From: a virus
Direction: 5' to 3' (one strand)
Virus record (IMG/VR): IMGVR_UViG_3300042397_000975
Span: 1 to 46,781 of that record
DNA length: 46,781 nt
The position numbers were made by a program, and so were the translations under genes. The notes under the pieces were generated by a model. That model did not search any database. It was given only the letters and a program-made list of their open reading frames with translations, and was not told where the DNA came from. Of this stretch, positions 26,365 to 39,144 are shown in pieces. How positions within the stretch are numbered: position 1 is the stretch's first letter; the number at the start of each line of letters is the position of its first letter.

Positions 26365-26593
26365 GAAGTTAATACAGTTTATGTTTTTCCTTCAATTTAC
26401 TCTCTACCAATTTGACCCTCTGTGGCAGTCAATGTATCAACCTGCACCCACTGAATCGCAACGGGTGCAAGAAGTTTCAACGGAACCTGAAGATCAAAGC
26501 TATTCGGAATTATCAAACAACTCGGAAGCTGAACATTATTCCTGGGAGCTCGGAACTCCTGACAACATTCCTGAAACAGAAATAATCTATTAG
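26363..26593 (+). CDS. Possible isolated plus-strand gene between terminase genes
   Basis: The open frame gives 76 residues from ATG 26363 (alternative ATG 26381). The N-terminal ~20 residues are hydrophobic (LIQFMFFLQFTLYQF), followed by an acidic, disordered tail rich in Glu, Ser and Pro. Its stop overlaps the stop of the oppositely oriented small terminase gene by two bases, as in tightly packed convergent genes. A perfect extended -10 lies just upstream. Against it: no SD is visible, and everything else for 27 kb is on the minus strand. No family recognised. It may be a small membrane-anchored accessory gene or an accident of a non-coding gap. Confidence 0.35.
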   Translation: MKLIQFMFFLQFTLYQFDPLWQSMYQPAPTESQRVQEVSTEPEDQSYSELSNNSEAEHYSWELGTPDNIPETEIIY

Positions 26594-27120
26594 ATAAGAT
26601 CATCTATTTTATCCGGCGCTTCGAGATTACGCTTCTCTTCGAGTTCGTAATACTCAGCTTCTATATCCTCTAAAGATTTTCCTGAATCTTTGTCGTAAGA
26701 CTTCAAGATAATATCGGATAGAGTAACATTGTGATTCACATCTAGCTTTTCTATAAAGTCAGCTTCGGACTTACCAAGAAGTTCTGAAGCTTTAAGTCTA
26801 ATCGGTAGCGGTATGTTACCTTCTGGTATTGGAACACCATTAGGATCTAGTTCTTCTTTTCTATATGGATCATCGTTTTTCATAATCTGTGACCAAAGTG
26901 CCTGACGTTCTTCGCGCGTCGCTATGACTTCTTTAAGATTGGCAACATACTTTCTTCGATCTTCGATTGCTTTCTTAATAAGTGGAAGTGATAGTAGCTC
27001 TTCACCTTTTTGTTTAAGGTAGACGTCTGTGCCGTTGTACCCTGCAACTCTCATTGCTTGAAGTAAATCGCCATCGTAAGCTTCTACAAATACTCTATGC
27101 TTCTGAGATAATTTCAACAT
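26590..27120 (-). CDS. Terminase small subunit
   Basis: This is a 176-residue protein. The N-terminus (LKLSQKHRVFVEAYDGDLLQ, then AMRVAGY) is the helix-turn-helix pattern of terminase small subunits, which bind phage DNA and recruit the large subunit. The C-terminal half is helical (ASELLGKSEADFIEKLDV). The start at 27120 is chosen over an in-frame ATG at 27159 because AAGGAGG lies 9 bases upstream. It overlaps the end of the csrA-like gene by 26 bases. It ends DKIDDLI, one of the shared C-terminal tails of this phage. It precedes the large subunit gene. Confidence 0.85.
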   Translation of the reverse strand: MLKLSQKHRVFVEAYDGDLLQAMRVAGYNGTDVYLKQKGEELLSLPLIKKAIEDRRKYVANLKEVIATREERQALWSQIMKNDDPYRKEELDPNGVPIPEGNIPLPIRLKASELLGKSEADFIEKLDVNHNVTLSDIILKSYDKDSGKSLEDIEAEYYELEEKRNLEAPDKIDDLI

Positions 27121-27316
27121 TTGATTTTGCCTCCTTACGCCTTTTCTCAAAGTATTCATGTATCTCTGCGCGATCTACGATGTAGTTCTTCGATGGTAGA
27201 TCAAGCACCACTTGGCATTGTGATGGAGATAACTTTGCTATGTGAATTGTAATCTTTTCGTTGTTGGGTAGTGTGATGATTAGCGATTGGTTTTTACGTC
27301 GAGTGAGTGACAGCAT
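27095..27316 (-). CDS. csrA: CsrA-like RNA-binding translational regulator
   Basis: This 73-residue protein starts MLSLTRR and has LPSKNYIVDRAEIHEYF, the two halves of the CsrA RNA-binding surface. L4, R6-R7 and R49 correspond to E. coli L4, R6-R7 and R44. The strand pattern and length (E. coli CsrA has 61 residues) also fit. CsrA dimers bind GGA motifs in mRNA leaders and usually block ribosomes. It is the first gene of the late leftward block, with a strong SD (GGAGGA) 4 bases from the ATG that itself contains GGA motifs, so autoregulation is possible. It could silence host mRNAs, mimic or compete with host CsrA, or time phage expression; which of these is unknown. Confidence 0.85.
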   Translation of the reverse strand: MLSLTRRKNQSLIITLPNNEKITIHIAKLSPSQCQVVLDLPSKNYIVDRAEIHEYFEKRRKEAKSNVEIISEA

Positions 27317-27347
27317 ATCTTCCTCCGATGATAGATATATTAAAAGC

Positions 27348-27377
27348 AGGATACGGCCGTAACATCCTTGTAGTCAA
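27348..27377 (-). promoter_or_regulatory. Candidate promoter of leftward (late) block
   Basis: On the minus strand, TTGACT (27377-27372), an 18-base spacer, and TATCCT (27353-27348) lie about 35 bases before the csrA-like ATG. This gives 5/6 and 4/6 matches to the sigma70 consensus. It is the best-placed promoter for the 32-kb leftward block. Confidence 0.5.
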
Positions 27378-27434
27378 CCGCACCTATAATTATTTTGGGC
27401 AGGGGTGACATGGTATGTCTATAAATATTTTAGA

Positions 27435-27454
27435 GGGTGGGGGAGGGGTATGGG
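27435..27454 (+). other. G-quadruplex motif 1
   Basis: Four G-runs of 3, 5, 4 and 3 bases are separated by loops of 1, 1 and 3 bases (GGG T GGGGG A GGGG TAT GGG). Short loops favour a stable quadruplex. It is on the strand that is the template for the leftward block. Confidence 0.8.
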
Positions 27455-27482
27455 ATATTATAATAATAAGTATGTGAGTCTA

Positions 27483-27504
27483 GGGGCAGTTGGGCCGGGG
27501 TGGG
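27483..27504 (+). other. G-quadruplex motif 2
   Basis: G-runs of 4, 3, 4 and 3 are separated by loops of 5, 2 and 1 bases. It lies 28 bp after motif 1 on the same strand, within a general G-rich stretch (27397-27535). Confidence 0.75.
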
Positions 27505-27636
27505 TATATACACGCGCGGTCACAACGAAAGGGGGTCGACAAGTTCACAAAGACGAAAAGTTTGATTGAACAAAAAATCTAATAGGCTCTGAGACGATCA
27601 GAAACCTAGCTAGGCGACGTTTAGACCTGCATGCCT

Positions 27637-27658
27637 TGGCGTACCTAGCGACTCTCCA
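27637..27658. repeat. Inverted partner of the 65-bp repeat arms
   Basis: Reading TGGCGTA-CCTA-GCGACTCTCCA, this is the reverse complement of TGGAGAGTCGCTACGCCA (27737-27754 and 27802-27819), apart from a four-base insertion. It can pair with either arm to form a large hairpin that encloses the 17-bp repeats. Confidence 0.75.
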
Positions 27659-27681
27659 AAATAAATGCACTATGAGGCGAG

Positions 27682-27819
27682 CAATGCCACCACGTCCACA
27701 ATGCCACCACGACCGCAATGCCACCACGTCGATCAGTGGAGAGTCGCTACGCCACGACGTCCACAATGCCACCACGACCGCAATGCCACCACGTCGATCA
27801 GTGGAGAGTCGCTACGCCA
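27682..27819. repeat. 65-bp tandem repeat with 17-bp iteron-like units
   Basis: Two 65-bp units begin at 27692 and 27757. Each contains 17-bp sub-units of the form CAATGCCACCACGNCCN: copies at 27682, 27699, 27716, 27764 and 27781. Between the sub-unit groups lies TGGAGAGTCGCTACGCC. Iterons of this length bind replication initiators in many plasmids and phages. Confidence 0.85.
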
Positions 27820-27934
27820 TTGAGTCGCATTGCCCTTGCAACCCACGTCGACGTTAAAAGATTGTGTTTGGATTATTATGGTATCAAATAACGCTATGTT
27901 TATAGATTGTAATTATCCGACTATATTTCAGCTA

Positions 27935-27970
27935 TTAGGCTAGGGGTCATTTTAGACTAATATAGCCTAA
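27935..27970. repeat. 36-bp module A (left arm of large dyad)
   Basis: The module starts TTAGGCTA, has an 8-base variable part, and then 20 bases ending TAGCCTAA. Compared with the reverse complement of 28182-28217, it has 28 identical bases outside the variable part. The two modules are exactly equidistant from 28076. Confidence 0.85.
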
Positions 27971-28169
27971 CGATAAGCCACTGCGATTCGACGAAATTTA
28001 TGCCCTTTTTTGCCTCGAGGGCGTAATAGTCTATTTTTTTCCGACATTCACCTTTATATATAAATAGATATAATGCATAGCGTCATTTATATTTATCTAC
28101 GTCGATTCATAAATTTTATAGACTATATTAAAAAAAGATAAAAAAAGCACACGTAAAGACTTTACTCTC

Positions 28170-28198
28170 TTGACGTTACAATTAGGCTATATTAGTCT
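28170..28198 (+). promoter_or_regulatory. Candidate promoter of rightward (early) block
   Basis: TTGACG (28170-28175) is followed 17 bases later by TAGTCT (28193-28198), a weak -10 that lies inside a TAGNCTA site. The weak -10 under an operator-like site would fit regulated early transcription. A perfect TATAAT at 28069-28074 has no good -35. Confidence 0.35.
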
Positions 28199-28217
28199 AA
28201 AACAGGTCATAGCCTAA
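28182..28217. repeat. 36-bp module B (right arm of large dyad)
   Basis: This is the inverted counterpart of 27935-27970. The stretch 28182-28202 is a perfect 21-bp inverted repeat of 27950-27970, and the outer TAGCCTAA (28210-28217) mirrors TTAGGCTA (27935-27942). The internal 8 bases differ between arms. Confidence 0.85.
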
Positions 28218-28268
28218 TGACCTAAAACAATTAGTCTATGAACACTTAAGAAACAAGGCGTCAACCTT

Positions 28269-28652
28269 ATGACAAAATTCAACGGTTCTAAGCGCTTCCC
28301 TAACATCAAAAAGATCAATACTAAAATATTGCAATCAATTGTCGACGGCAACGACGGGCGCACCGAGACAGGAAGCGACTACGGTGCGCTATTGCCCGAG
28401 ATTATAGACGAACTACATAAGCGCCAGAACGCCAATGCGATCAAAGAGCAAAAAGAGATGGATAAGCAGATGCACCTTCAAGAACTCGCAACAAAAGGCA
28501 AGCAATGCCCTAAGTGCGAGCGCTACTATTCACTCGATTCAGTCGACGCCAATTTCTACAAAGTCGCAGGATCGACAACACGCTATCGTCCACGCTGCAA
28601 ATCTTGCCACGTCGAGGCGTCCAGAATTAACCGAACACAAGCGCCATTCTAA
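28269..28652 (+). CDS. Early zinc-ribbon protein, unknown
   Basis: This 127-residue protein has a four-cysteine zinc site: C80-P-K-C83 and C110-K-S-C113, 26 residues apart. His114 is an extra possible ligand. The N-terminal half is helical and charged (EIIDELHKRQNANAIKEQKE). Zinc ribbons of this size often bind DNA or RNA polymerase, so as the first gene of the early block it may act on host or phage transcription; that is inference. The SD is weak (AAGG about 12 bases before ATG). It is the gene nearest the TAGNCTA array and is a candidate for binding it. Confidence 0.75.
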   Translation: MTKFNGSKRFPNIKKINTKILQSIVDGNDGRTETGSDYGALLPEIIDELHKRQNANAIKEQKEMDKQMHLQELATKGKQCPKCERYYSLDSVDANFYKVAGSTTRYRPRCKSCHVEASRINRTQAPF

Positions 28653-28696
28653 TAACAACCGAGGCAATCACGCCTCTTTATATCTTCGGAGGATAT

Positions 28697-29014
28697 ATGA
28701 GAAACCAAGAGCAAGTGAACTTTTTAACAATCGGCCAGGCCGGTGACCTAGTGGACAGGATAGCCGACAGAGCAGAAAATTTTAACTACACTATGAGCGA
28801 ATCAGAAAAGGAAGCCATGGCGCAGTTATTGTCAGACATCGGAGTAAGAACATCAGACCTCATCGACGTGGCAAATCTTGCCGATAACTATGCAATCAAT
28901 GCAGAGATTATCAGACCAGACGACCGCAAGCACTACGACATGAAACGAGTCAAAGAGGACAGCCTATTCCAATGGAAAGAAGACGGCGAAACTCTTTATT
29001 GTCTTCAGTGGTAA
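28697..29014 (+). CDS. Early protein of unknown function
   Basis: This is a 105-residue acidic protein. Predicted helices (AGDLVDRIADRAENF, ESEKEAMAQLLSDIG) are followed by a C-terminal segment with FQWKEDGETLYCLQW that looks like a beta hairpin. No family recognised. Strong SD CGGAGGA five bases before the ATG. Position in the early block suggests a host-directed or regulatory role, but nothing in the protein proves it. Confidence 0.75.
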   Translation: MRNQEQVNFLTIGQAGDLVDRIADRAENFNYTMSESEKEAMAQLLSDIGVRTSDLIDVANLADNYAINAEIIRPDDRKHYDMKRVKEDSLFQWKEDGETLYCLQW

Positions 29015-29018
29015 GACC

Positions 29019-29099
29019 ATGGAAGCGACAACACATCAAACATTAATCCTATTGGGCGTCTTCTGGACGCTCTCACTATTAACTTTAAGAAAAGGATAA
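29019..29099 (+). CDS. 26-residue membrane peptide
   Basis: This is a short open frame from ATG 29019, ending three bases before the next ATG. It encodes one hydrophobic helix (LILLGVFWTLSLLTL) flanked by a polar N-terminus and a basic C-terminus (RKG). The SD is poor. The tight packing against both neighbours and the clear membrane helix support it; the small size counts against. Confidence 0.4.
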   Translation: MEATTHQTLILLGVFWTLSLLTLRKG

Positions 29100-29102
29100 T
29101 TT

Positions 29103-29225
29103 ATGAATGATTACATAATTCAGTACACCAAGCGAAAAACGTGGTCAGTCTTTCACATCGACTTCGGATTCATCGGAGAGTTTCCGACATTCGACGACGT
29201 GGAAAGATTCATTAATTTAAACTAA
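29103..29225 (+). CDS. 40-residue early protein, unknown
   Basis: The frame begins MNDYIIQYTKRKTWSVFHID and ends with an amphipathic helix (FDDVERFINL). It looks like a compact beta-beta-alpha unit. AGGA lies 7 bases before the ATG, inside the end of the preceding peptide gene. No family recognised. Confidence 0.6.
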   Translation: MNDYIIQYTKRKTWSVFHIDFGFIGEFPTFDDVERFINLN

Positions 29226-29238
29226 CAGGAGCAAGATT

Positions 29239-29481
29239 ATGGGTAATAGATATTTGATAAACGTACTAGATTATATTCTCACACATGAGCACGAAGACTT
29301 TATGGAAAACCTGCCAGATATGAATATTTCAGAACAGCAGAAAAAATTAATTTCCTACTTGTATCACGACAACGTAAGCATGACGGACGAAGTTAAACAG
29401 GCGTTCAGAGATATTGCAAAAGATGGAAACGGGCACATATACGCTTCGGCCATTTGCCTTCAATACAACATAAAGGATTAA
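29239..29481 (+). CDS. 80-residue early protein, unknown
   Basis: An all-helical, acidic protein (DYILTHEHEDFMENLPDM, QQKKLISYLYHD). No metal site or membrane segment seen. Good SD (AGGAG, 8 bases before ATG). It is part of a run of tightly spaced small early genes. No family recognised. Confidence 0.7.
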   Translation: MGNRYLINVLDYILTHEHEDFMENLPDMNISEQQKKLISYLYHDNVSMTDEVKQAFRDIAKDGNGHIYASAICLQYNIKD

Positions 29482-29485
29482 AACC

Positions 29486-29722
29486 ATGCGCATGAAATGG
29501 AAATACCACACCAAGAACAATAGAACTTTTCTACGCCCAGACTTGGCGACTTGCCCCTACACAATCGAAGTCAACCTATCAGGCGGAAAGCATATTATCT
29601 TCGACGTTCGCATGTATTCCAATGGTGGAAGCACAAACTACCAGAAAGTCGGAGAGTCGTACAACATGACACAAGCGCAACACATACTTAGAAACGCACT
29701 AAAACAGGAGCAAACAAAATGA
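29486..29722 (+). CDS. 78-residue early protein, unknown
   Basis: Basic N-terminus (MRMKWKYHTKNNRTFLRPD), then alternating strands (YTIEVNLSGGKHIIFDVRMY) and a C-terminal helix (TQAQHILRNALKQ), so an alpha/beta mini-domain. SD AAGGA 8 bases before ATG. The stop overlaps the next ATG by four bases (ATGA), implying coupled translation. No family recognised. Confidence 0.7.
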   Translation: MRMKWKYHTKNNRTFLRPDLATCPYTIEVNLSGGKHIIFDVRMYSNGGSTNYQKVGESYNMTQAQHILRNALKQEQTK

Positions 29723-30135
29723 CATTCAAAGAATCAACACACCCACAAATTAAAGAACTTTTGACCCTTCTAAACCATTCACGTCGACGTGTCCGCATAT
29801 GGTACGGAGACACAGAGACAGGAAGATCATGGAATGAGGAGTATCACGTTATGGGCGAGATAGGCAGATCAAGCGGCCTGGCCAAAATCCCATTGATGAT
29901 AGGCAACCGACGAAGCTTAGGAGGCCCATCGGTACTAGATCACTGTATTATTAGAATTGACGACACCAATGCACGAAGAACACTTTACACTCACCCAAAC
30001 TTTCACACCAATTTAAAAGTCGTAGGCGTGGAAGTCGTCAACACCCAAGACAATACAACACGAGCGAGATTTGATCACCCACTTAAAGCCCAAAAATATT
30101 TTGAGTTTATGGAAGGTAAAAGGTATTCAAAATGA
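29719..30135 (+). CDS. 138-residue early protein, unknown
   Basis: This 138-residue protein has a beta-rich centre (RVRIWYGDTETGRSWNEEYH, then GLAKIPLMIGN), with a hydrophobic VLDHCIIRID strand. It ends in a helical basic tail (HPLKAQKYFEFMEGKR). The pattern suggests a small beta-barrel, but I recognise no family. SD AGGAG about 8 bases upstream. It overlaps genes on both sides by four bases. Confidence 0.7.
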   Translation: MTFKESTHPQIKELLTLLNHSRRRVRIWYGDTETGRSWNEEYHVMGEIGRSSGLAKIPLMIGNRRSLGGPSVLDHCIIRIDDTNARRTLYTHPNFHTNLKVVGVEVVNTQDNTTRARFDHPLKAQKYFEFMEGKRYSK

Positions 30136-30206
30136 AACCACGAAAATTCGGAAAGACTTGCTATCTAACCAAACGTAGGGAAATTTTAAACAGGACTAGA
30201 AAATGA
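30132..30206 (+). CDS. 24-residue basic peptide, coupled on both sides
   Basis: The frame starts in the stop of the previous gene (ATGA) and its own stop overlaps the next start (ATGA). It encodes MKPRKFGKTCYLTKRREILN followed by RTRK, strongly basic. An SD-like AAAGG lies about 8 bases upstream. The double coupling suggests real translation, even if only to carry ribosomes to the next gene. Confidence 0.5.
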   Translation: MKPRKFGKTCYLTKRREILNRTRK

Positions 30207-30385
30207 AATACTACACTTTTATAAATTTAAACAACACAGCACAAATTAAAGCATGCTATGACTACGCCTTCGGATGGAAAGAAACCCACCCAGAAGAGGA
30301 CTTAACTTTTAGCGAAGTTTACGACATTCTACTACAGAACACAGAAGACATTTATTATAAAGACGGATCACTATCAGAGGAATAG
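30203..30385 (+). CDS. 60-residue acidic early protein, unknown
   Basis: Begins MKYYTFINLNNTAQIKACYD and ends in acidic residues. Mostly helical and strongly negative, a common feature of small phage proteins that bind host enzymes or mimic DNA. That role is only a possibility. SD AGGA 7-8 bases before the ATG. Two bases separate its stop from the next start. Confidence 0.7.
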   Translation: MKYYTFINLNNTAQIKACYDYAFGWKETHPEEDLTFSEVYDILLQNTEDIYYKDGSLSEE

Positions 30386-30387
30386 AA

Positions 30388-30597
30388 ATGAGTTACATTG
30401 ACGGATCAGGAAGCCTTAACGTGGCAAAGATAGCAAGACAAATCAGACAAGTGGCAAAGAGCGTGGACGACACGCTCTACGCCTCTTTTGAACACATCGA
30501 TGGCGAGCGTAGACTTATGACCCTTGAAGCGATCAAAAGTCTTCGCATGTTAGCGGATGAAATAGAAAGACAGGAAGATGAATTTTTTAATTCTTGA
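30388..30597 (+). CDS. 69-residue helical early protein, unknown
   Basis: The protein starts MSYIDGSGSLNVAKIARQIR and is almost entirely helical (VDDTLYASFEHIDGERRLM, then ALEAIKS-like LEAIKSLRMLADEIERQEDE). It ends with an acidic helix. SD AGAGGA is 5-6 bases before the ATG. No family recognised. Confidence 0.7.
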   Translation: MSYIDGSGSLNVAKIARQIRQVAKSVDDTLYASFEHIDGERRLMTLEAIKSLRMLADEIERQEDEFFNS

Positions 30598-30642
30598 CGA
30601 TCACAAAATGTCACCGATAGCATTTAATCATCGGAGGACATT

Positions 30643-30780
30643 ATGATCGTTGAGTGGGAATTTATAAAAGTGGCATTCTTATCGTCATACATCACATGGT
30701 TTATATACAGACAGTGGATAAGGTACAACACTTGTAAAACGTACCAGATTAAATCTTTTCTCAAACGGAGGGTAAAATGA
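30643..30780 (+). CDS. 45-residue single-pass membrane protein
   Basis: The frame encodes a short acidic N-terminus, one membrane helix (FIKVAFLSSYITWFIY) and a basic tail ending LKRRVK, so the tail is probably in the cytoplasm. SD TCGGAGGA with the same flanks as the csrA-like leader lies 5 bases before ATG. The stop overlaps the start of the next gene (a lipoprotein) by four bases, so the two envelope proteins are probably made together. Function unknown; superinfection exclusion is one option. Confidence 0.7.
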   Translation: MIVEWEFIKVAFLSSYITWFIYRQWIRYNTCKTYQIKSFLKRRVK

Positions 30781-30959
30781 GAACAGGACTAATTTTTATT
30801 ATGCTATTGATTGCATCGTGCGGACGTTACGACGACAATGAATGCAGATCAAGGGAGCACATGCGCATTCAATGCCAAGCAGAGCAAATTCCTACTTACG
30901 GGCGACCTTACGCAGTCGAAGCATGCAACCGAAGCTATGAAGCAGAGAGATGCTACTAA
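30777..30959 (+). CDS. Small Cys-rich lipoprotein
   Basis: This 60-residue protein has a lipoprotein signal: MRTGLIFIMLLIASC with lipobox I-A-S-C15. The mature part (~46 residues) has four more cysteines (C23, C33, C49, C59), enough for two disulfides in the periplasm. Early phage lipoproteins often block the receptor or DNA entry of later phages (as Llp of T5 does), which fits here but is inferred. SD CGGAGG about 7 bases upstream. Coupled to the membrane protein before it. Confidence 0.75.
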   Translation: MRTGLIFIMLLIASCGRYDDNECRSREHMRIQCQAEQIPTYGRPYAVEACNRSYEAERCY

Positions 30960-31426
30960 TGAAAGTCAAAGTAAACGTCGATGACCCTATCATTAGGGCA
31001 TCGGCACGACTTTTAGAAGATCACTGCCAAGACAGAGCATTTATGAAGAAAATTGCGGAAGTAAAGCAATACAACCACACATCACTATCACCAGTGGAAG
31101 TGGCGCAAGGACTTTACTTAGATGCACATTACGCTGAAATAACCATCGAGGGATATAAATCTTTTCTACCTTGGAGTAAGTCGATAGGGCATGCAGAGGG
31201 TACGACTATTTTTATAAACTTGAGAAAGACGAAGCTAGATGTCTATCAAAGAGCAGGAAATCTTTACCATGAATTTTGTCACCTGGCCGGATTCAGTCAC
31301 GACGGAAACAAAGTGACCCCATACAATCTAGGGAGCGTTCCGTACAAGGCAGGGCAAATCTTTGAAGACTATCTAAGGGATCTTATCAACACCAAGTCCA
31401 TCAATAGTGAAGGACTAAAATCATAG
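30959..31426 (+). CDS. Zinc metalloprotease-like protein (HExxHxxGxxH)
   Basis: From ATG 30959 the product has 155 residues. [12 protein letters not shown] at 104-115 is a full HExxHxxGxxH(D) motif: zinc ligands H104, H108, H114 and catalytic E105, as in metzincin-type peptidases. No signal peptide, so it would act in the cytoplasm. Length is short for a protease, comparable to minimal peptidase domains. An alternative start at 30950 would add MLL. The start overlaps the lipoprotein stop by one base. It may cut a host regulator during takeover, but substrates are unknown. Confidence 0.75.
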
Positions 31427-31434
31427 GAGGCGTT

Positions 31435-31593
31435 ATGCCATTGAAGAAAGGAACATCTAAGAAAACCGTATCTGCTAACATCAAAAAAGAAATGAAAGCA
31501 GGGAAGCCACAAAAGCAGGCGATTGCTATCGCTCTAAGTTCAGCAGGCAAGTCAAAGAAACTCGTAAGCAAGAAAACTTCTAAGAAGAAGTAA
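31435..31593 (+). CDS. Short Lys-rich protein (DUF6496-like)
   Basis: This 52-residue protein begins [20 protein letters not shown], then [16 protein letters not shown], with a basic tail. The pattern matches a widespread family of short phage and bacterial proteins (DUF6496-like) whose function is not known to me. SD AGGAGG lies 4-5 bases before the ATG. A 15-bp perfect hairpin begins seven bases after its stop. Confidence 0.8.
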
Positions 31594-31599
31594 CACATT

Positions 31600-31637
31600 T
31601 TTCGTGATCGTAACGATTTAATGTTACGATCACGAAA
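31600..31637. other. Perfect 15-bp inverted repeat (hairpin)
   Basis: Arms 31600-31614 and 31623-31637 are perfectly complementary, with an 8-base loop GATTTAAT. There is no T-run after the hairpin on the plus strand, so it is not a standard terminator. It separates the small early genes from the replication genes. Possible roles: RNase III-type processing site, mRNA stabiliser or operator. Confidence 0.8.
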
Positions 31638-31652
31638 TCTATTGAGGGATAT

Positions 31653-32159
31653 ATGAGACAAGAAATATTGCAAAAATTGCACAGCCTAGAAAGCAACGAG
31701 ATCAAAGATAAATTATTAAAAATGACATCAAAAGCTACTTTAAAAGAGCTAAGAAATATTAAAGACATGTTAGGATTCATTGAAGATTCAAACGTATCAG
31801 TCGGAGATGTATCAGTACGTAAAGCATACTTGATTAGAGTCTTAAACTCTCCAATATTCAGCAAGGCGTTTGACATAGTAGACGTGGCGTCAAAGCATCA
31901 TCCTATCAGTACAACAGACGTCATACTTAGAGCAGGATTAAAGAATGCTACAAGAAAGACTAAGCTACAAGTCGGACATTTACTTGCATTAGCAGGATTC
32001 AAAAGAGTATCAGTACATAGGACAGGATTAACACCGGCCAAATTGTGGCAACCGATGGATAAGACAGTCGACGACGAATATCGTGCCGAATATTTCTTTT
32101 CTTTACTAAAGGATCATGTAACACTTGCCGATACTCAAGCATTAGATGATTTAATCTGA
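31653..32159 (+). CDS. Winged-helix-like protein with LDDLI tail
   Basis: This 168-residue protein has an N-terminal helical part (~1-80) and a C-terminal domain with STTDVILRAGLKNATRKTKL, then QVGHLLALAGFKRV and a Trp-containing strand (KLWQPM). This resembles a winged-helix fold like that ending the primase-helicase of this phage, so DNA binding is likely. It ends TQALDDLI. It is first in the replication cluster, just upstream of the SNF2-type helicase. SD GAGGGA about 5 bases before ATG. No named family. Confidence 0.7.
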   Translation: MRQEILQKLHSLESNEIKDKLLKMTSKATLKELRNIKDMLGFIEDSNVSVGDVSVRKAYLIRVLNSPIFSKAFDIVDVASKHHPISTTDVILRAGLKNATRKTKLQVGHLLALAGFKRVSVHRTGLTPAKLWQPMDKTVDDEYRAEYFFSLLKDHVTLADTQALDDLI

Positions 32160-32167
32160 GGGGATTA

Positions 32168-33502
32168 ATGATTATAAAACCAAGACAGCATCAATCGGAT
32201 CTGATGCAATTTCACAAGACCTCTAAGATGATAGGGACACTGGCCTGGCATGGCATGGGACTAGGAAAAACCCTATCAACACTATGGTTAGCTAGAGAGC
32301 ACATAGCAAATCTTAGAAAACAAGGCGTTAAGGCGCCTAAGTTTATGGTCATAGTCCCTAAGTCGGCAGTCCCTACTTGGAAAGTAGAATGCCATACCAA
32401 CACACCTGACATTCTATCCTCAATGGTAATTTATCCATACTCACAACTACACAATGCAGTGAAGTCATTGAAGTATATGGATATTAGAATGCTGATCTTC
32501 GATGAATCACATTATCTAAAATCACCAGAGACTAACAGGATCAGAGCACTATCAGACTTTCTATCTGAGATGACTAAAGTAACAGGGCAGTTTAAAGATG
32601 GACGCATAATGCTTCTAACAGGAACGCCAATGCCAAACGCAGCGACAGAGCTCTATACCTCATGGGTACTATGCACTAGCCCAACCATCGAAGAGGCAAG
32701 TAAGCGCCTACTAGACACAGTTAGGTTTGAGAATTGGAAGCGCACATTTTCTAAGAAAAAAGAAATTGCATGGACTAAAGGCAGAAACGGGCGCAAGAAA
32801 TCAATGAAGGCGAACAAGTGGGAAGGCGTAGCAAACGAGGATAAACTTCAACAGTTACTCTCTCCATTTGTACATTATAGAAGAGTCGAAGATTGTATTG
32901 ACCTTCCTGATAAACAGGAGATTGCAATTGATCTAGGACTTCCAGACGATAAGCTACTTGCCGATGCTAACATCGAAGAGCCCGAGGCATACATGGCGTT
33001 ACTTGAACGCCTGGCCAGGGCAAAGACCCCATATATGATGGAATGGGTAGATGACTACCTAGATGCAGGCGATCAGCAGTTACTTGTTTTCGCTAACTAT
33101 AGATTCCCACTAGAAGAGATGAGAGAGAAGTTTCCTAAACATGTGAGACTTATCACTGGTGCAGAGACAGCAGCAGACAGAGCAAAGAATTTAAAAGACT
33201 TTAAAGATGGATTGTTTCGAGTACTTGGTATGACTTTTAAATGCGGATCAGAATCATTAAACCTGCAGAATGCTTTTGTATCTTTGTACCATGGGTATCC
33301 ATGGACAGACGGAGCAGTAAAGCAGGCTATGGCACGTACCCATCGAAGTGGCCAGGCCAGGAAGACACTGCACTACTTCCTGACGTCTGGCCTTAATGAC
33401 CAGAGGATCTTAAGTTTAGTACGGGCCAAAGAAGAGGCGACGACCAAAGTGGAAGACATGCTATCGCAAGAAGTTAAATTAACTTTGGATACTTTAATAT
33501 GA
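32168..33502 (+). CDS. SNF2/DEAH-type DNA helicase or translocase
   Basis: This is a 444-residue superfamily 2 ATPase. Motif I is HGMGLGKT (28-35, K34), motif II DESH (112-115), and LLTGTPMPN near 155 is motif III. Motif VI is near 386-396 (QAMARTHRSGQ). The typical MGLGKT and HRSGQ signatures point to the SWI2/SNF2 group rather than a replicative helicase. In phages such proteins accompany polymerase and nuclease genes and may drive recombination or fork remodelling. It ends KLTLDTLI. SD GAGGGG 5 bases before ATG; ATGA overlap with an in-frame upstream start of the next gene. Confidence 0.9.
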   Translation: MIIKPRQHQSDLMQFHKTSKMIGTLAWHGMGLGKTLSTLWLAREHIANLRKQGVKAPKFMVIVPKSAVPTWKVECHTNTPDILSSMVIYPYSQLHNAVKSLKYMDIRMLIFDESHYLKSPETNRIRALSDFLSEMTKVTGQFKDGRIMLLTGTPMPNAATELYTSWVLCTSPTIEEASKRLLDTVRFENWKRTFSKKKEIAWTKGRNGRKKSMKANKWEGVANEDKLQQLLSPFVHYRRVEDCIDLPDKQEIAIDLGLPDDKLLADANIEEPEAYMALLERLARAKTPYMMEWVDDYLDAGDQQLLVFANYRFPLEEMREKFPKHVRLITGAETAADRAKNLKDFKDGLFRVLGMTFKCGSESLNLQNAFVSLYHGYPWTDGAVKQAMARTHRSGQARKTLHYFLTSGLNDQRILSLVRAKEEATTKVEDMLSQEVKLTLDTLI

Positions 33503-33555
33503 ATATCCGTATAAACGAAAAGTATAACCCAATCAGTATGAAAGAGAGGAGGATT

Positions 33556-33762
33556 ATGAGTTCAAGAAAGAATGCCTACGGGCCAGATGCGTTTGAGTAC
33601 TTAGTGGAAACAAATCAAGACATGCAGACGTTAAGAAAACAGATTGAAGAACTAGACAAGACAATCGAAGACCTAGAAGATCAAGTTGATAAACTTAATA
33701 AAATCAACGAGACACTAAGACAAGAAGTAATGAAGGCCCATGGCTTGACAGACGGAATTTAA
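33556..33762 (+). CDS. Short coiled-coil protein
   Basis: This 68-residue protein starts MSSRKNAYGPDAFEYLVETN and continues as a heptad-rich coiled coil (MQTLRKQIEELDKTIEDLED, then DKLNKINETLRQEVM). The start at 33556 has AGGAGG just upstream; an in-frame ATG at 33499 overlaps the helicase stop (ATGA), would give 87 residues and remains possible. Probably a dimer and perhaps an accessory to the helicase, but no family is known to me. Confidence 0.65.
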   Translation: MSSRKNAYGPDAFEYLVETNQDMQTLRKQIEELDKTIEDLEDQVDKLNKINETLRQEVMKAHGLTDGI

Positions 33763-33791
33763 CAGTTACTATAATATCTGAGGGGATAATC

Positions 33792-35057
33792 ATGAAAAAA
33801 ATTTTGGGGAAGTTAGAGATCCATAACGATCTTTTAAACTTTGTCCGTCCAACGCCACACTCTAAGTTTAGTCCAAGTGCTGCAGAGAGATGGATGGTAT
33901 GTCACTATTCAGTCGGAGCAAGCAAAGACATTCCTGAAGAGACTTCTGTCTATGCAGAGGAAGGCACACTTGCCCATTCAGTATGCGAAGCAGTCTTTAG
34001 ACAGCAATACTTTGACGTGCCATTTCCTAATGATCTACAGATGCAGTTGATTGGATACGATGGCGACGAGATCATGGCATGCGCTCAAGGATACGTCGAT
34101 GTCATTACCTTTTGGTTAAACAATAAGGACATGATCGGCAATGTAATTTCTTACGGCATTGAGAAAGGTGTTCCTATATTTCCAGAGGAAGGCTGCTTTG
34201 GTACGGCAGATTGTCTTATCATCGGAGACAAAGGTGCGGCAGTCATAGACTATAAGCATGGCAAGGGTAAAAATGTTGCGGCAAATTCATTACAGTTAAG
34301 AGTCTACGCTGCAGGCATAGCAAGATACCTGGCCAACGTACCTGAAGATTATAAGATTAGTTGCATAGTGTACCAACCACGTACAGACATGGCGCCTAAA
34401 GAAATTACATACACTATGCCAGAGTTAAACCAAACACTTGGGGATATATGGAAGTCAATTCAGGCGACTAAAGAAACTAATTTAGAACCATGTGAAGGTA
34501 ATCATTGTTACTGGTGTCCGGCCAATAGAACTAAAGACATCGATAAAAAGTGTAAGCTAATGAGAGACAAACCCTTGAAGCTTGCTCAAGAAAACTTTGG
34601 TAAGTTCTTAGCAGATATGAATGCACCAATAGAAAAGTTTAATGCACCTAATCCTAATAGAGATGCAGCGATCGTAAAGATCCACGCTTTATTTCCATTG
34701 ATGAAGAAGATCGTAGAGGATACGACTGAAGAACTAATGATGAGGATCGAGGCAGGAGAATACGTCGAAGGCGTCAGGATTATTGAAGAGCTAGGCAACA
34801 GGCAGTTAAACTTTGAGACTGATGAGCAAGCTGCGGCTGCACTTAAGACTCAATTTAATATAGATCCATTTAAGATAATTCCAGAGACTAAGAAACTAAA
34901 AACAATTACCGAGATAGAAAAAGTCGTAGGTAAAAACAAACTAGATTCTCTTTGCGTCCGTAAAGTCAAAAAGAAAGTAGACATTATTGATGGAAAGATA
35001 CGTGACATTTTAGGTGAGATGGCCACGTACAGAGAGATGATTAACCAAGGGGAATAA
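33792..35057 (+). CDS. Cas4/RecB-like nuclease (DUF2800-type)
   Basis: This 421-residue protein has SPSAAERWMVC near residues 30-40 and EEGTLAHSVCEAVF, then a PD-(D/E)XK nuclease core: D140 (GTADC), D153-Y-K155 (VIDYKHGKG), with a following QLRVYAAG helix (motif QxxxY-like). A Cys cluster (HCYWCPA, with a later Cys) may bind an iron-sulfur cluster or zinc, as in Cas4/AddB-type nucleases. This is the pattern of the DUF2800 family, which commonly sits next to a DUF2815 single-strand-binding protein and a polymerase. A role in recombination or DNA degradation is likely. SD GAGGGG about 6 bases upstream. Confidence 0.85.
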   Translation: MKKILGKLEIHNDLLNFVRPTPHSKFSPSAAERWMVCHYSVGASKDIPEETSVYAEEGTLAHSVCEAVFRQQYFDVPFPNDLQMQLIGYDGDEIMACAQGYVDVITFWLNNKDMIGNVISYGIEKGVPIFPEEGCFGTADCLIIGDKGAAVIDYKHGKGKNVAANSLQLRVYAAGIARYLANVPEDYKISCIVYQPRTDMAPKEITYTMPELNQTLGDIWKSIQATKETNLEPCEGNHCYWCPANRTKDIDKKCKLMRDKPLKLAQENFGKFLADMNAPIEKFNAPNPNRDAAIVKIHALFPLMKKIVEDTTEELMMRIEAGEYVEGVRIIEELGNRQLNFETDEQAAAALKTQFNIDPFKIIPETKKLKTITEIEKVVGKNKLDSLCVRKVKKKVDIIDGKIRDILGEMATYREMINQGE

Positions 35058-35058
35058 T

Positions 35059-35697
35059 ATGACACCTGAACAACAAAAAGAATTCTTTAAGCAAACATTC
35101 ACACTTCAAGGTAGGATCTTCCATCCGAATCTTTTGAAGGCAGTTGCTAGAGAAGAAGGCAAACGTGAAACTTTTAACACAATGTTTTCATGGGATCAGA
35201 CATCTAATACTCAAGTGATGCAAGCACTAAATGCTTTCTTAGGTAAAGCTAAAGAATTGTTTCACCCATCTGTACCGATGCAGGCATTTGTTAATCCAAT
35301 TAAGAAGTATGAAACCTACTTAAGACAAGATGGCAAACCGAATCCAGAGTATCTTAAAGGATGCTATTGGCTTAATGCTCAATCAGGTAAAGACTTCCCA
35401 CCACCAGTTGTGGATAAGACAAGACAGCCTATCATCAACGAGGCTGAGGTTTACTCAGGTCGTAACGCTGTAATCAATGTTTCTTTCTACAACATCGATG
35501 GCGCTAAAGGCGGCAAGCGTGGACTAGGCTGTAATGTAAACGCAGTCATGTTACTTGATGGCGGAGAGAAAGTAGGATCCACAGGCGCAGGAGTGAACAT
35601 CGATAAGATCTTCGGAGGCTTTGCTCAAGACATGGGTATCGCTTCGACTGAATCAGCACCGGCCTGGCCACCACAAAACCTTAATAGCTTTGTTTAA
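35059..35697 (+). CDS. Single-stranded DNA-binding-like protein (DUF2815-type)
   Basis: This 212-residue protein has GCYWLNAQSGKDFPPPVVD, then EVYSGRNAVINVSFYNIDG and KRGLGCNVNAVMLLDGGEK. These blocks typify the DUF2815 family, thought to be OB-fold single-strand-binding proteins like T7 gp2.5. It follows the DUF2800-type nuclease by one base, as is usual. The C-terminus (PPQNLNSFV) is hydrophobic but lacks a strong acidic tail. SD AGGGGAAT lies just upstream. Confidence 0.85.
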   Translation: MTPEQQKEFFKQTFTLQGRIFHPNLLKAVAREEGKRETFNTMFSWDQTSNTQVMQALNAFLGKAKELFHPSVPMQAFVNPIKKYETYLRQDGKPNPEYLKGCYWLNAQSGKDFPPPVVDKTRQPIINEAEVYSGRNAVINVSFYNIDGAKGGKRGLGCNVNAVMLLDGGEKVGSTGAGVNIDKIFGGFAQDMGIASTESAPAWPPQNLNSFV

Positions 35698-35708
35698 TAG
35701 GAGGAACA

Positions 35709-36206
35709 ATGTTTAAATTGACAGTTAGTTTTGAAACAATCGAAGACCTTAATCATTACGTGCAAGAGTTACGTGGCAAGCAAACACAAACTCAATCTCA
35801 AGTGGAGTTCCCTAAAGATATTCCACCTGTAATTGAAGAGAAGAAACCTGCTAAGAAATCTGCACCTAAAAAATCAGCGCCAGTTGAAGTAAAGCAAGAA
35901 GTCGAAGCAGAGTTTGAAGAGGTCGAGTCACCATTTGTTGAGCCACAGAAACCACCATTTGATCGTGATGGCGCAATCGCTAACGCTCAGAAACTTGTGG
36001 CACAATTAAAAGGTACAGGCATTGCAGACGATAAGTTAATGCCTGCTATCCACGAAGTCTATGCTCAAGCAGGATGTCCGATCAATCTTAAGATCTCTCA
36101 GTTGAGTGATGAGCAGTTATCTGTTTTCATTCCATTGTTTGAGCTACAAGTTAAATCGATTGTATCAAAAACTAAAGCTGCACAAACTACAGCATCATTC
36201 ATTTAG
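35709..36206 (+). CDS. Replication-cluster protein, unknown
   Basis: This is a 165-residue protein. A short N-terminal domain (MFKLTVSFETIEDLNHYVQE) is followed by a disordered Lys/Ala/Pro linker (EKKPAKKSAPKKSAPVEVKQ), an acidic patch, and a C-terminal helical domain (DDKLMPAIHEVYAQAG ... LSDEQLSVFIPLFELQVKS). The linker joins two domains much as in histone-like tails. No family recognised. It sits between the SSB-like protein and polymerase, so a part in replication is probable. SD AGGAGG about 5 bases upstream. Confidence 0.7.
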   Translation: MFKLTVSFETIEDLNHYVQELRGKQTQTQSQVEFPKDIPPVIEEKKPAKKSAPKKSAPVEVKQEVEAEFEEVESPFVEPQKPPFDRDGAIANAQKLVAQLKGTGIADDKLMPAIHEVYAQAGCPINLKISQLSDEQLSVFIPLFELQVKSIVSKTKAAQTTASFI

Positions 36207-36214
36207 GAGGAAAG

Positions 36215-36463
36215 ATGGAAGTATTAACAGAGGAAACTAAAGTAGAATTGATAGGCACAATAAACTCAGCGATTGATTTACTCGAAGCTATTCATGGTAA
36301 AGTTGATTACGCTTTAAGTCTTTATAAGTGCAGACAATTGCAGATGGTGGCAGTTGATTTAAGTTCAATAGCAGATCATATTCAAGACTTAGCAACCAAT
36401 GGCCCTACCGAGCCATGGTCAGAAATACCGTTAGAACAGTCTGAAACTGCAGAGGCTTTATAA
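36215..36463 (+). CDS. 82-residue helical protein, unknown
   Basis: Helical, mildly acidic protein (INSAIDLLEAIHGKVDYALS ... DLSSIADHIQDLA). Its stop overlaps the start of the polymerase by one base (TAATG), so they are translationally coupled and it may be a polymerase partner. No family recognised. SD AGGAGG 5-6 bases upstream. Confidence 0.7.
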   Translation: MEVLTEETKVELIGTINSAIDLLEAIHGKVDYALSLYKCRQLQMVAVDLSSIADHIQDLATNGPTEPWSEIPLEQSETAEAL

Positions 36464-38406
36464 TGTCACACCTGATTGACTTTCACTTTGACTTTGAAAC
36501 TCGAAGCAGAATTGATCTCAAAGTTGCAGGCACAGTCAGGTATGCTACAGATCCATCGACTGAAGCAACACTATTAACGTGGTGCTTTGGTCGAACAGGA
36601 TCCATTAAGTACTGGAAGTATGGCCAGCAAATACCTGCAGAGTTACTTGATGTCGCACACAACCCAGATAAGTACAAGTTCAATGCCTTCAACATAGGCT
36701 TCGACTATCTTATCTGGACTTTAGTTTTTTCCAAAGTTGTTCCTGGCCTTGTCCGTCCGAAGATAGAAAACTTAGAAGATACCATGGCGCTTAGTTGTCA
36801 CTTTAGAATGGGCGCATCATTAGATGCAGCATCACGCATGATGAACTTACCATTTAATAAAGACAAAGATGGCAGACGCATCATGCTCAAGCAATGTAAG
36901 CCTAACGCTAAAGGTGAATTCCCTACGCTCACAGAAGAGGAGTGGGATAAGTTTGTTCACTATGGACTTATGGATACTAAGATCTTACGTGACGTATACT
37001 ACAGTATACCTGCCCTACCTGCACCAGAACGATGGGCATGGGAGTGGACGTTTAAAAGAAACCTTCGAGGTATTAAGATCGATCAGGATCTTGTTAATGA
37101 GATGGCATCAATTATCTCAGAGGCAGCGCCAAAGTTAGTTAATGAGTTTGATATGCTAGTGGGCGGCAAGGTAAAGATTAACTCTCCAAAGTGTAAGGAT
37201 TTCTTTAAGCAGTATTATCCTTGGATTGAAAACATGCAGGCGGATACTGTTAGAGACATGCTTGCCTCTGATCTTCAAGTTCACCCAACAGTTAGACGTG
37301 CGCTTGAGATCAAGGATCTAGCAGGCTCGACGTCTATTGCTAAAGTTAAGTGCGCAGTTGAGCAAAGTTATAGTAGCAGAATCTACGGAGTACTTAGTTA
37401 TCATTATGCGCATACAAAACGATGGGCCGGACGTGGAATTCAAATCCAAAACTTCCCACGAGTGGATGACAACAAGGCGGATCCTATTGACTTTGATCTT
37501 GATGTTGAAGACTTAACTACAACTATTAGATCAAGACGGGTAGCACTTAAAGATCCTATTGGCTTCGTTAAGAATCTACTTCGACGTATCTGGATCCCAG
37601 ACACAGGACTAATGTTTTACTGCGGTGACTTCTCACGAGTTGAACCATCAGTATTGTATTGGTTACTTGGCCAGGGGGATATACCTTCCAAGTGGTATGA
37701 AGAGATGGCAGCAGAGATCTATAACAAACCTGTAAGTGAGATCGCCAAGGACTCTGAGGAAAGAACAGTCGGTAAGTCAGCTAACCTTGGATGCGGTTAC
37801 GGCATGGGGCCAGATAAATTTAAAGCTGATACAGCTAAGAAGACAGGCATCATTCTATCCGACGAGATGGCAAGACAAGTTGTGTTCACATATCGGCGTA
37901 AGAACAAAGCAATCGTAGACTTCTGGAAAGAAACTGAGTGGGCATTTAGACGTGCAGTATTAGGTGAACCTAGTATCCTATGCAATGGCAAGGTGCACTT
38001 CATGCCAATGCAAAGACCACACAAGGGAGTTCAGATTAGACTTCCATCTGGATCCCATCTCTATTACCACCACGCTCAGATCGATGCTGAACAAACGGAT
38101 AAAGGTATCAGAGAGATCCTTACCTACGCCACCGATGAAGGTGGTATCTTAGGAAGATCTAAACTCTATGGTGGTTTACTTACCGAGCATATCGTATCAG
38201 CGACGGCCAGGGATATTCTTGTACCTGCAATGTATCGCCTAGAGAATGCAGGCTTTGATGTATTAAACGTGGTTCACGATGAGATCTGGGCGCAGGCACA
38301 AGACGGAAGAGATCAAGAATTCAAACGTATCATGTGTATCAATCCATCATGGTGCAACATGAAGATTGACGCAGATCTTAAATGCGGAGTGAGGTATTTA
38401 AAATGA
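36463..38406 (+). CDS. DNA polymerase, family A, with 3'-5' exonuclease
   Basis: This 647-residue protein has an exonuclease domain beginning with D10 and E12 (FDFETR). The polymerase domain has motif A CGDFSRVEPS (D389, E394), motif B RTVGKSANLGCGYG (R434, K438, Y446) and motif C VVHDEI (H605, D606, E607). All catalytic residues are present. Short and compact compared with E. coli PolI; no 5'-3' exonuclease domain, so it is a replicative phage polymerase of the same broad class as T7's. Partners here are the primase-helicase, SSB-like protein and nucleases. The stop overlaps the next gene start (ATGA). Confidence 0.95.
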   Translation: MSHLIDFHFDFETRSRIDLKVAGTVRYATDPSTEATLLTWCFGRTGSIKYWKYGQQIPAELLDVAHNPDKYKFNAFNIGFDYLIWTLVFSKVVPGLVRPKIENLEDTMALSCHFRMGASLDAASRMMNLPFNKDKDGRRIMLKQCKPNAKGEFPTLTEEEWDKFVHYGLMDTKILRDVYYSIPALPAPERWAWEWTFKRNLRGIKIDQDLVNEMASIISEAAPKLVNEFDMLVGGKVKINSPKCKDFFKQYYPWIENMQADTVRDMLASDLQVHPTVRRALEIKDLAGSTSIAKVKCAVEQSYSSRIYGVLSYHYAHTKRWAGRGIQIQNFPRVDDNKADPIDFDLDVEDLTTTIRSRRVALKDPIGFVKNLLRRIWIPDTGLMFYCGDFSRVEPSVLYWLLGQGDIPSKWYEEMAAEIYNKPVSEIAKDSEERTVGKSANLGCGYGMGPDKFKADTAKKTGIILSDEMARQVVFTYRRKNKAIVDFWKETEWAFRRAVLGEPSILCNGKVHFMPMQRPHKGVQIRLPSGSHLYYHHAQIDAEQTDKGIREILTYATDEGGILGRSKLYGGLLTEHIVSATARDILVPAMYRLENAGFDVLNVVHDEIWAQAQDGRDQEFKRIMCINPSWCNMKIDADLKCGVRYLK

Positions 38407-38681
38407 TTAAGAAAGATCAAGAAACATTCTACGAGGTCGTCGGCAAGGCATTGACTTCATCGAGGCTGCGTAGGAACATGAGTATTGCGGAGCTTGCAAA
38501 GCTTTCGGGAGAACAAAACAAAACTATAAGGTTTATTGAAAAAGGGAATTGCTGTTCCTTGCACCATATAGTCTGGATGACTGAAATATTCGGGATGAAT
38601 TTTAATAAGATAATCAAGGAATTTGAGGGGAAATATGAGCAAGAAAGCAGGGAAGTCTTCGGACTCAGTGACATCGTCTAA
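38403..38681 (+). CDS. Small HTH (XRE-like) DNA-binding protein
   Basis: From ATG 38403 the product has 92 residues. RLRRNMSIAELAKLSGEQNK followed by TIRFIEKGN is a Cro/CI-type helix-turn-helix. The start is set by ATGA overlap with the polymerase stop and GAGG 8 bases upstream; an earlier in-frame start at 38382 would add seven residues inside the polymerase gene. It may regulate phage promoters (the TAGNCTA array is a candidate target). The last residues read GLSDIV, loosely like the shared C-terminal tail. It overlaps the next gene by 47 bases. Confidence 0.8.
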   Translation: MIKKDQETFYEVVGKALTSSRLRRNMSIAELAKLSGEQNKTIRFIEKGNCCSLHHIVWMTEIFGMNFNKIIKEFEGKYEQESREVFGLSDIV

Positions 38682-39123
38682 ACGTAAAGTATCACATAGA
38701 GGCGCACTTCAAAAAGGTAAACAGTTTGAACGTGAGATCGCCAATAGATTAGGGCATATCTTTCCGGAAGCTGAACGCATGCTTGAGTATCAGGCATCGA
38801 AGGTTATCGGAGTAGACATTGAGGGAACTGATCGCATTAAAATTCAATGCAAAAACCATCAGAACTATTGCTCTATCGGAACAATACATGAAATAAGATC
38901 GACAAATCCAAACGATATTCCTGTTCTTGTTACTAAAGGTAACAGACTAGAAGCCATGGCCGTACTGCCGTTTGAAAAGTTTGTCACCCTTTTAGAAATA
39001 GCGTACGGCCTTGAGCTTCCTTTTAGAACATTCGATCTGCCCGAGACTAAGCAACTAAGCTACGTCGAACACGAGCAGATCGACTGTCCTAAAGAATGCA
39101 ACGCACTAGATACTTTAATATAA
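38635..39123 (+). CDS. PD-(D/E)XK nuclease, resolvase-like
   Basis: This is a 162-residue protein from ATG 38635 (GAGGGG 4 bases upstream; a TTG at 38623 is in frame but unlikely). KGKQFEREIANRLG is the conserved first helix, then GVDIEG (D61) and IQCKNH (Q71-x-K73). This is the layout of RecB-like and Holliday-junction resolvase-like enzymes, with Gln in place of the usual Glu/Asp before the Lys. The substitution occurs in related phage proteins but activity is not assured. It ends CNALDTLI. It overlaps the HTH gene in another frame. Confidence 0.8.
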   Translation: MSKKAGKSSDSVTSSKRKVSHRGALQKGKQFEREIANRLGHIFPEAERMLEYQASKVIGVDIEGTDRIKIQCKNHQNYCSIGTIHEIRSTNPNDIPVLVTKGNRLEAMAVLPFEKFVTLLEIAYGLELPFRTFDLPETKQLSYVEHEQIDCPKECNALDTLI

Positions 39124-39144
39124 ACACTAAGCAGAGGTGACACT

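Follow-up and report, generated by a model that had tools for sequence, protein, structure and literature searches.

A mirror-symmetric array of TAGNCTA sites between the late and early genes of an uncultured phage, a candidate bidirectional replication origin

The gap between the divergent late and early genes of an uncultured phage contains an array of TAGNCTA sites arranged with long-range mirror symmetry. The array and its symmetry are real and form an unusual element. To judge from sequence comparisons, this element is probably a bidirectional replication origin, with inverted arms that would be read by the phage's own Prim-Pol/VapE-like initiator. What recurs in the same gap of related phages is the architecture, i.e., inverted arms and an AT-rich core, and not the TAGNCTA motif.

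Genome context

The window (the whole stretch of DNA analyzed here) is a single virus record of 46,781 bases, IMGVR_UViG_3300042397_000975, and its DNA shows no similarity to that of cultured phages. The late genes, which encode head, tail, and terminase proteins, are directed leftward, the early and replication genes are directed rightward, from 28269 to 41214, and the lysis genes, located beyond 41214, are directed leftward again. The mirror element sits in the 1015-bp gap from which the late and early blocks diverge (Table 1). An Rfam search of positions 27000 to 28700 returned no match. An open reading frame (ORF) resembling the CsrA-like protein encoded at the start of the late block is found at the equivalent position in the related phage G001 (L055).

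Table 1. Features of the late/early gap, of the genes discussed in the text, and of the corresponding gaps in related phages
Feature	Position	Strand	Remarks
Small terminase subunit	26590-27159	leftward	Late block
CsrA-like protein (PF02599)	27095-27316	-	Start of late block
Late-side conserved block	27455-27540	.	ATATTATAATAATAA + GGGGTGGGTATA + AAAGGGGG; separate from mirror element
Left (late-side) inverted arm	27926-27970	.	TAGNCTA first bases 27936, 27953, 27963; inverted alignment P ~5e-8
Core between arms	27971-28181	.	GC 0.31; candidate unwinding element
Inner left site, TAGTCTA	28027-28033	.	46 bp from axis; mirrors 28119
Inner right site, TAGACTA	28119-28125	.	46 bp from axis 28076
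Putative early promoter, TTGACG-17-TAGTCT	28170-28198	+	Consensus match; -10 hexamer inside site 28193
Right (early-side) inverted arm	28182-28227	.	TAGNCTA first bases 28183, 28193, 28210
Ninth site, TAGTCTA	28232-28238	.	No mirror partner
Zinc-ribbon-like protein	28269-28652	+	First early gene
HTH_3 protein	38382-38681	+	Small; kept among relatives
Prim-Pol + VapE-like helicase with predicted C-terminal winged helix (~residues 610-680)	39145-41214	+	Pfam, PDB, AF2, fold search
Inverted arms in relatives' gap			L016, 125 bp; L105, 103 bp; L109, 84 bp; L114, 119 bp; L020, 101 bp (P 5e-4)

The TAGNCTA array and its symmetry

As reported in the first-pass annotation of this sequence, nine TAGNCTA heptamers are found within 303 bp between the late and early blocks. 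Only 0.28 such sites would be expected in the 1015-bp gap; the rest of the 46.8 kb contains 5 more, and shuffled sequences yield a total of ~12 for the whole window. Eight of the nine sites are paired to the base about an axis at 28076.0. These include the two single sites between the modules (28027 and 28119), correctly described as mirror images, but the statement that all of the sites are equidistant from this axis does not extend to the one at 28232. The outer 36-bp modules are indeed inverted copies of each other about the same axis, with 30 of 36 identical bases instead of the 28 originally counted.

Gapped inverted local alignment delineates inverted arms of 45 bp, with a score of 45 versus 19.3 +/- 2.0 for dinucleotide shuffles. 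These arms outscore every other inverted pair of the window, and no other 700-bp segment of the genome contains a pair scoring above 29. The probability that four pairs from nine randomly placed sites share one center is 2.5e-5; when the modules are counted as a single inverted duplication, the inner pair would share their center by chance with a probability of 0.005. The 60 bp of the core with the lowest GC content (15%) are centered at ~28115, displaced from the axis by 39 bp toward the early genes.

Loss of the motif and recurrence of the layout in related phages

The array is identical in contigs of the same phage (L021 and L044/L075). Sought in relatives, as suggested in the first-pass annotation, it was not found in the gaps of L011 and G001, whose large terminases are 78% and 84% identical, respectively, and which are the nearest relatives with a covered gap, while L017 (66%) has five clustered TAGNCTA sites that lack mirror symmetry. 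Thus, the motif is not conserved; inverted arms, in contrast, are seen again in other relatives, where their sequences differ. A search of viral contigs with the module pattern retrieved only near-identical contigs of the same phage and two unrelated matches, in L073 and L074, which consisted of a dense palindrome patch and a terminator-like hairpin. In bacterial genomes, the same pattern was found 3 times in 257 Gb, at or below the chance level that we estimated ourselves for 18 fixed bases.

Significant inverted arms are present in the same gap in five independent relatives (L016, L105, L109, L114, and L020), whose large or small terminase subunits (TerL or TerS) are 46 to 66% identical to those of the window. 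The respective P values, from a Gumbel fit to shuffles, range from 5e-4 to <1e-12, the smallest of them being orders of magnitude only, because they were extrapolated from a tail fitted to 60 shuffles. The arm sequences of these five phages are related neither to those of the window nor to one another. In the scanned contig DNA of L085/L109, L105, L016, and L114, the arms in the gap far outscore every other inverted pair. Some of the arms contain short repeats of their own: those of L109 include six copies of the 9-bp repeat TGTATAGTT, two pairs of which are exactly mirrored about the L109 axis, and those of L114 include four copies of another 9-bp repeat, ATGGTATTA. No 7-mers repeated at least 4 times were found in L105 or L020. 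In the window and all five of these relatives (6/6), the lowest-GC 60 bp are shifted from the axis toward the early genes, by 9 to 73 bp.

This layout is not universal, as inverted alignment of the gaps revealed no significant arms in seven relatives (L017, L025, L057, L062, L064, L110, and L014) and borderline ones in six more (L011, L013, L026, L037, L055, and L101), so that more than half of the tested relatives are without clear arms. L060 was left out of this count, its inverted match being built from low-complexity repeats. The cultured phages CP2 and phiM5 have no comparable inverted pair, and in a multiple alignment of the relatives' gaps, no sequence-conserved element stands out.

The proposed initiator

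The best candidate for a protein that reads the arms combines in a single chain a Prim-Pol domain (Pfam ID PF09250; E value of 3.9e-13) and a VapE-like helicase domain (PF05272; E value of 1.6e-59), the best PDB match of the latter being the VapE helicase 7pds. In the AF2 model, its C-terminal domain has pLDDT values of ~86 to 92, and the helices and strands follow one another as in a winged helix. Fold searches with this domain produced winged-helix DNA binders as the best matches (Z of ~8), while a comparison of the C-terminal sequence profile with PDB found no relative. Residues 641 to 680 are the least conserved ones, with 12 to 50% identity to the relatives versus 45 to 95% for residues 401 to 560. 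A diverged C terminus is how a fast-changing DNA-recognition domain would be expected to look, although other causes are common for C termini. The initiator gene is separated from the element (27926 to 28238) by 11 kb, and around 41.2 kb, on the 3' side of this gene, the whole-window scan for inverted pairs detected none that is strong.

Two other proteins had been put forward as potential binders of the array, and the relatives argue against both. The recognition helix of the HTH protein is nearly identical in G001, whose gap has no TAGNCTA, and the zinc-ribbon protein encoded at 28269 is also present in L013 and L037, whose gaps likewise have none.

Early promoter and alternative explanations

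The first-pass annotation suggested either an origin or a looping operator. The relatives favor the origin, and the operator, which we consider less likely, is its main rival. Under that explanation, a dimeric repressor from the phage or its host would bridge the arms over ~210 bp and repress the early promoter, perhaps together with leftward transcription. The putative early promoter of the window overlaps the right arm, having its -10 hexamer within a site and more sites just downstream; in L011, a single TTAGACTAATAT overlaps the early -10 hexamer. Short odd palindromes are what dimeric regulators would bind, and the unmirrored cluster in L017 would also suit an operator. In L011, L055, and L064, a TTGAC[AG]-N17/18 element with a TATAAT-like hexamer is found ~70 to 100 bp ahead of the first early gene. 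However, the early promoter-like site of L016 and L114 lies outside the arms, indicating that the arms are not simply promoters, and the promoter matches within the arms are inconsistent in direction, so that mirrored promoters do not account for the symmetry. Furthermore, an operator would not be expected to have arms as long as 84 to 125 bp, and matched sites without entire mirrored arms would be enough for looping. In the looping operators of the temperate phages lambda (OL/OR) and 186 (CI), too, an early promoter is surrounded by a number of short palindromic sites, and the repressors are known. Those sites are not known to form exact mirror arms. Among the candidates examined here, the HTH and zinc-ribbon proteins, none co-occurs with TAGNCTA and no repressor for these sites was identified. 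The origin and the operator are not mutually exclusive, because the early promoter would be covered by an initiator bound to the right arm.

Two further explanations do without an initiator or a repressor. The arms are alike within each genome and unrelated between genomes, as might be seen if an inverted duplication had decayed or a miniature inverted-repeat element were present, in either case without function today and with arms homogenized by gene conversion. We regard this as improbable, given that six phages carry unrelated sequences at the same location, that the sites of the window were kept while much of the intervening sequence diverged, and that the module pattern occurs elsewhere only at about the chance level. 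The position of the element, ~0.8 to 1.1 kb upstream of the small terminase gene, and the presence of other repeats in the gap are compatible with a packaging (pac/cos) or recombination site, but such a role appears highly improbable: the conserved late-side block at 27455 to 27540 is the better terminase-linked candidate, given its conserved sequence and its shorter distance from the gene, and there is no recombinase among the proteins searched.

Other repeats in the gap and probable insertions in the relatives

The late-side block is wholly or partly kept in L011, L055, L060, L062, and L101 and may act as a late promoter or as a site linked to the terminase. Positions 27681 to 27810 consist of two 65-bp tandem direct repeats, each with GTGGAGAGTC at its end; together with positions 27646 to 27658, these repeats form 13-bp inverted repeats, TAGCGACTCTCCA. 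The heptamer GGAGAGT/ACTCTCC is overrepresented in the window (13 copies versus 4.7 expected), and many relatives also have it in the corresponding gap. A second family of palindromes, TTAYTNNARTAA, is found in the gaps of L011, L020, and L060 (3 copies each), L062 (5 copies), and L055 (1 copy), against no more than 0.05 expected per gap. In phages with a known HTH protein, the presence of these palindromes roughly tracks recognition helices of the form EQ[NYF][KN]TI.

The DNA polymerase gene of G003 (L054, 10001 to 12730) is interrupted by ~790 bp, and the large terminase gene of L023/L037 (L037, 8783 to 11356) is interrupted by ~1 kb; introns or homing insertions are the probable cause in both cases. 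In L021 (2955 to 4518), the large terminase gene is matched in two pieces, with a break at ~3898 in an otherwise identical contig, which is probably an assembly error.

Comparison with known origins

Plasmid pRN1 and its relatives encode a single protein that combines Prim-Pol, helicase, and winged helix; they need a stem-loop for replication, and this stem-loop has the least conserved sequence of the region while its structure is kept (PMC4234260). The authors of that study propose the same for Bordetella phage BIP-1 and deduce a bidirectional start from the symmetry (PMC4234260). The phage described here resembles these replicons in having a protein that joins an archaeo-eukaryotic primase to a ring helicase and carries, in the model, a winged helix at its C terminus, and a symmetric element that keeps its form and not its sequence. 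However, the pRN1/BIP-1 element is a single stem-loop of ~100 bp, without iterons, located directly 3' of the initiator gene, and no such stem-loop is present at that place here. Instead, the arms are 36 to 214 bp apart, contain short repeats in some phages, and occupy the late/early gap, 11 kb from the initiator gene. The pRN1/BIP-1 helicase belongs to SF3, and the helicase domain described here is VapE-like by Pfam.

The SaPI Rep helicases read iterons through their C-terminal domain, apparently as two hexamers (PMC7581432). A self-loading initiator helicase that reads iterons in this way, as in the SaPI/P4 systems (PMC7581432), is what is proposed here; the PDB match to VapE is a further likeness, and the nine TAGNCTA repeats would correspond to the multiple short iterons of those systems if the initiator binds them as we propose. 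In SaPIs, the iterons adjoin the rep gene, unlike the distant element of this phage, and the cited literature describes no long mirrored arms (PMC7581432), which are present here. In place of Prim-Pol, the initiator of P4 has a Toprim primase. Because the element is not next to the initiator gene, it is assigned to neither the pRN1/BIP-1 nor the SaPI/P4 family.

In the herpes simplex virus OriS, inverted boxes flank an AT-rich spacer, which initiator dimers are thought to destabilize (PMC12543377). The likeness to the inverted sites around the AT-rich core is one of layout only, since OriS has single boxes, a far shorter spacer, and an unrelated initiator, the SF2 helicase UL9.

Proposed mechanism and implications

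An origin is favored, at the level of sequence and predicted structure, by an architecture that persists without sequence conservation, by the AT-rich core, and by a primase-helicase with a variable winged helix. Its distance from the initiator gene, in contrast to the pRN1, BIP-1, and SaPI origins, each located just 3' of its initiator gene, and the overlap of the right arm with a promoter-like site in the window phage argue against it. The cumulative GC skew has its minimum at ~28.5 to 30 kb, which is confounded by gene direction, and the third-codon skew shows no replication signal.

In the proposed mechanism, the origin would occupy the gap where the late and early blocks diverge, and the short repeats of its arms (TAGNCTA in this phage) would be bound by the Prim-Pol/VapE-like helicase via its C-terminal winged helix. 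Loading on arms that face each other would place two helicase rings in opposite orientations; the rings would melt the AT-rich core and then depart in opposite directions, with the primase domain laying primers for the family A polymerase of the phage. The initiator bound to the right arm might also shut the early promoter, a form of autoregulation. Binding of the arms by the primase-helicase, the start of replication at this site, its bidirectionality, and the autoregulation are all inferred.

More tentatively, the elements in these phages may represent a class of origins that is defined by mirror symmetry, in which the recognition sequence is swapped wholesale and the initiator's winged helix changes with it, which would give each phage a private replication address. 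If so, the origins of a group of uncultured Prim-Pol/VapE phages could be found from sequence by their mirror arms and not by a motif, and the fast-changing winged helix, together with the repeats, would offer a direct route to the joint change of initiator and origin specificity. The idea of a structure that is kept while its sequence is not, put forward for pRN1, would thereby be extended to phages, with several independent examples.
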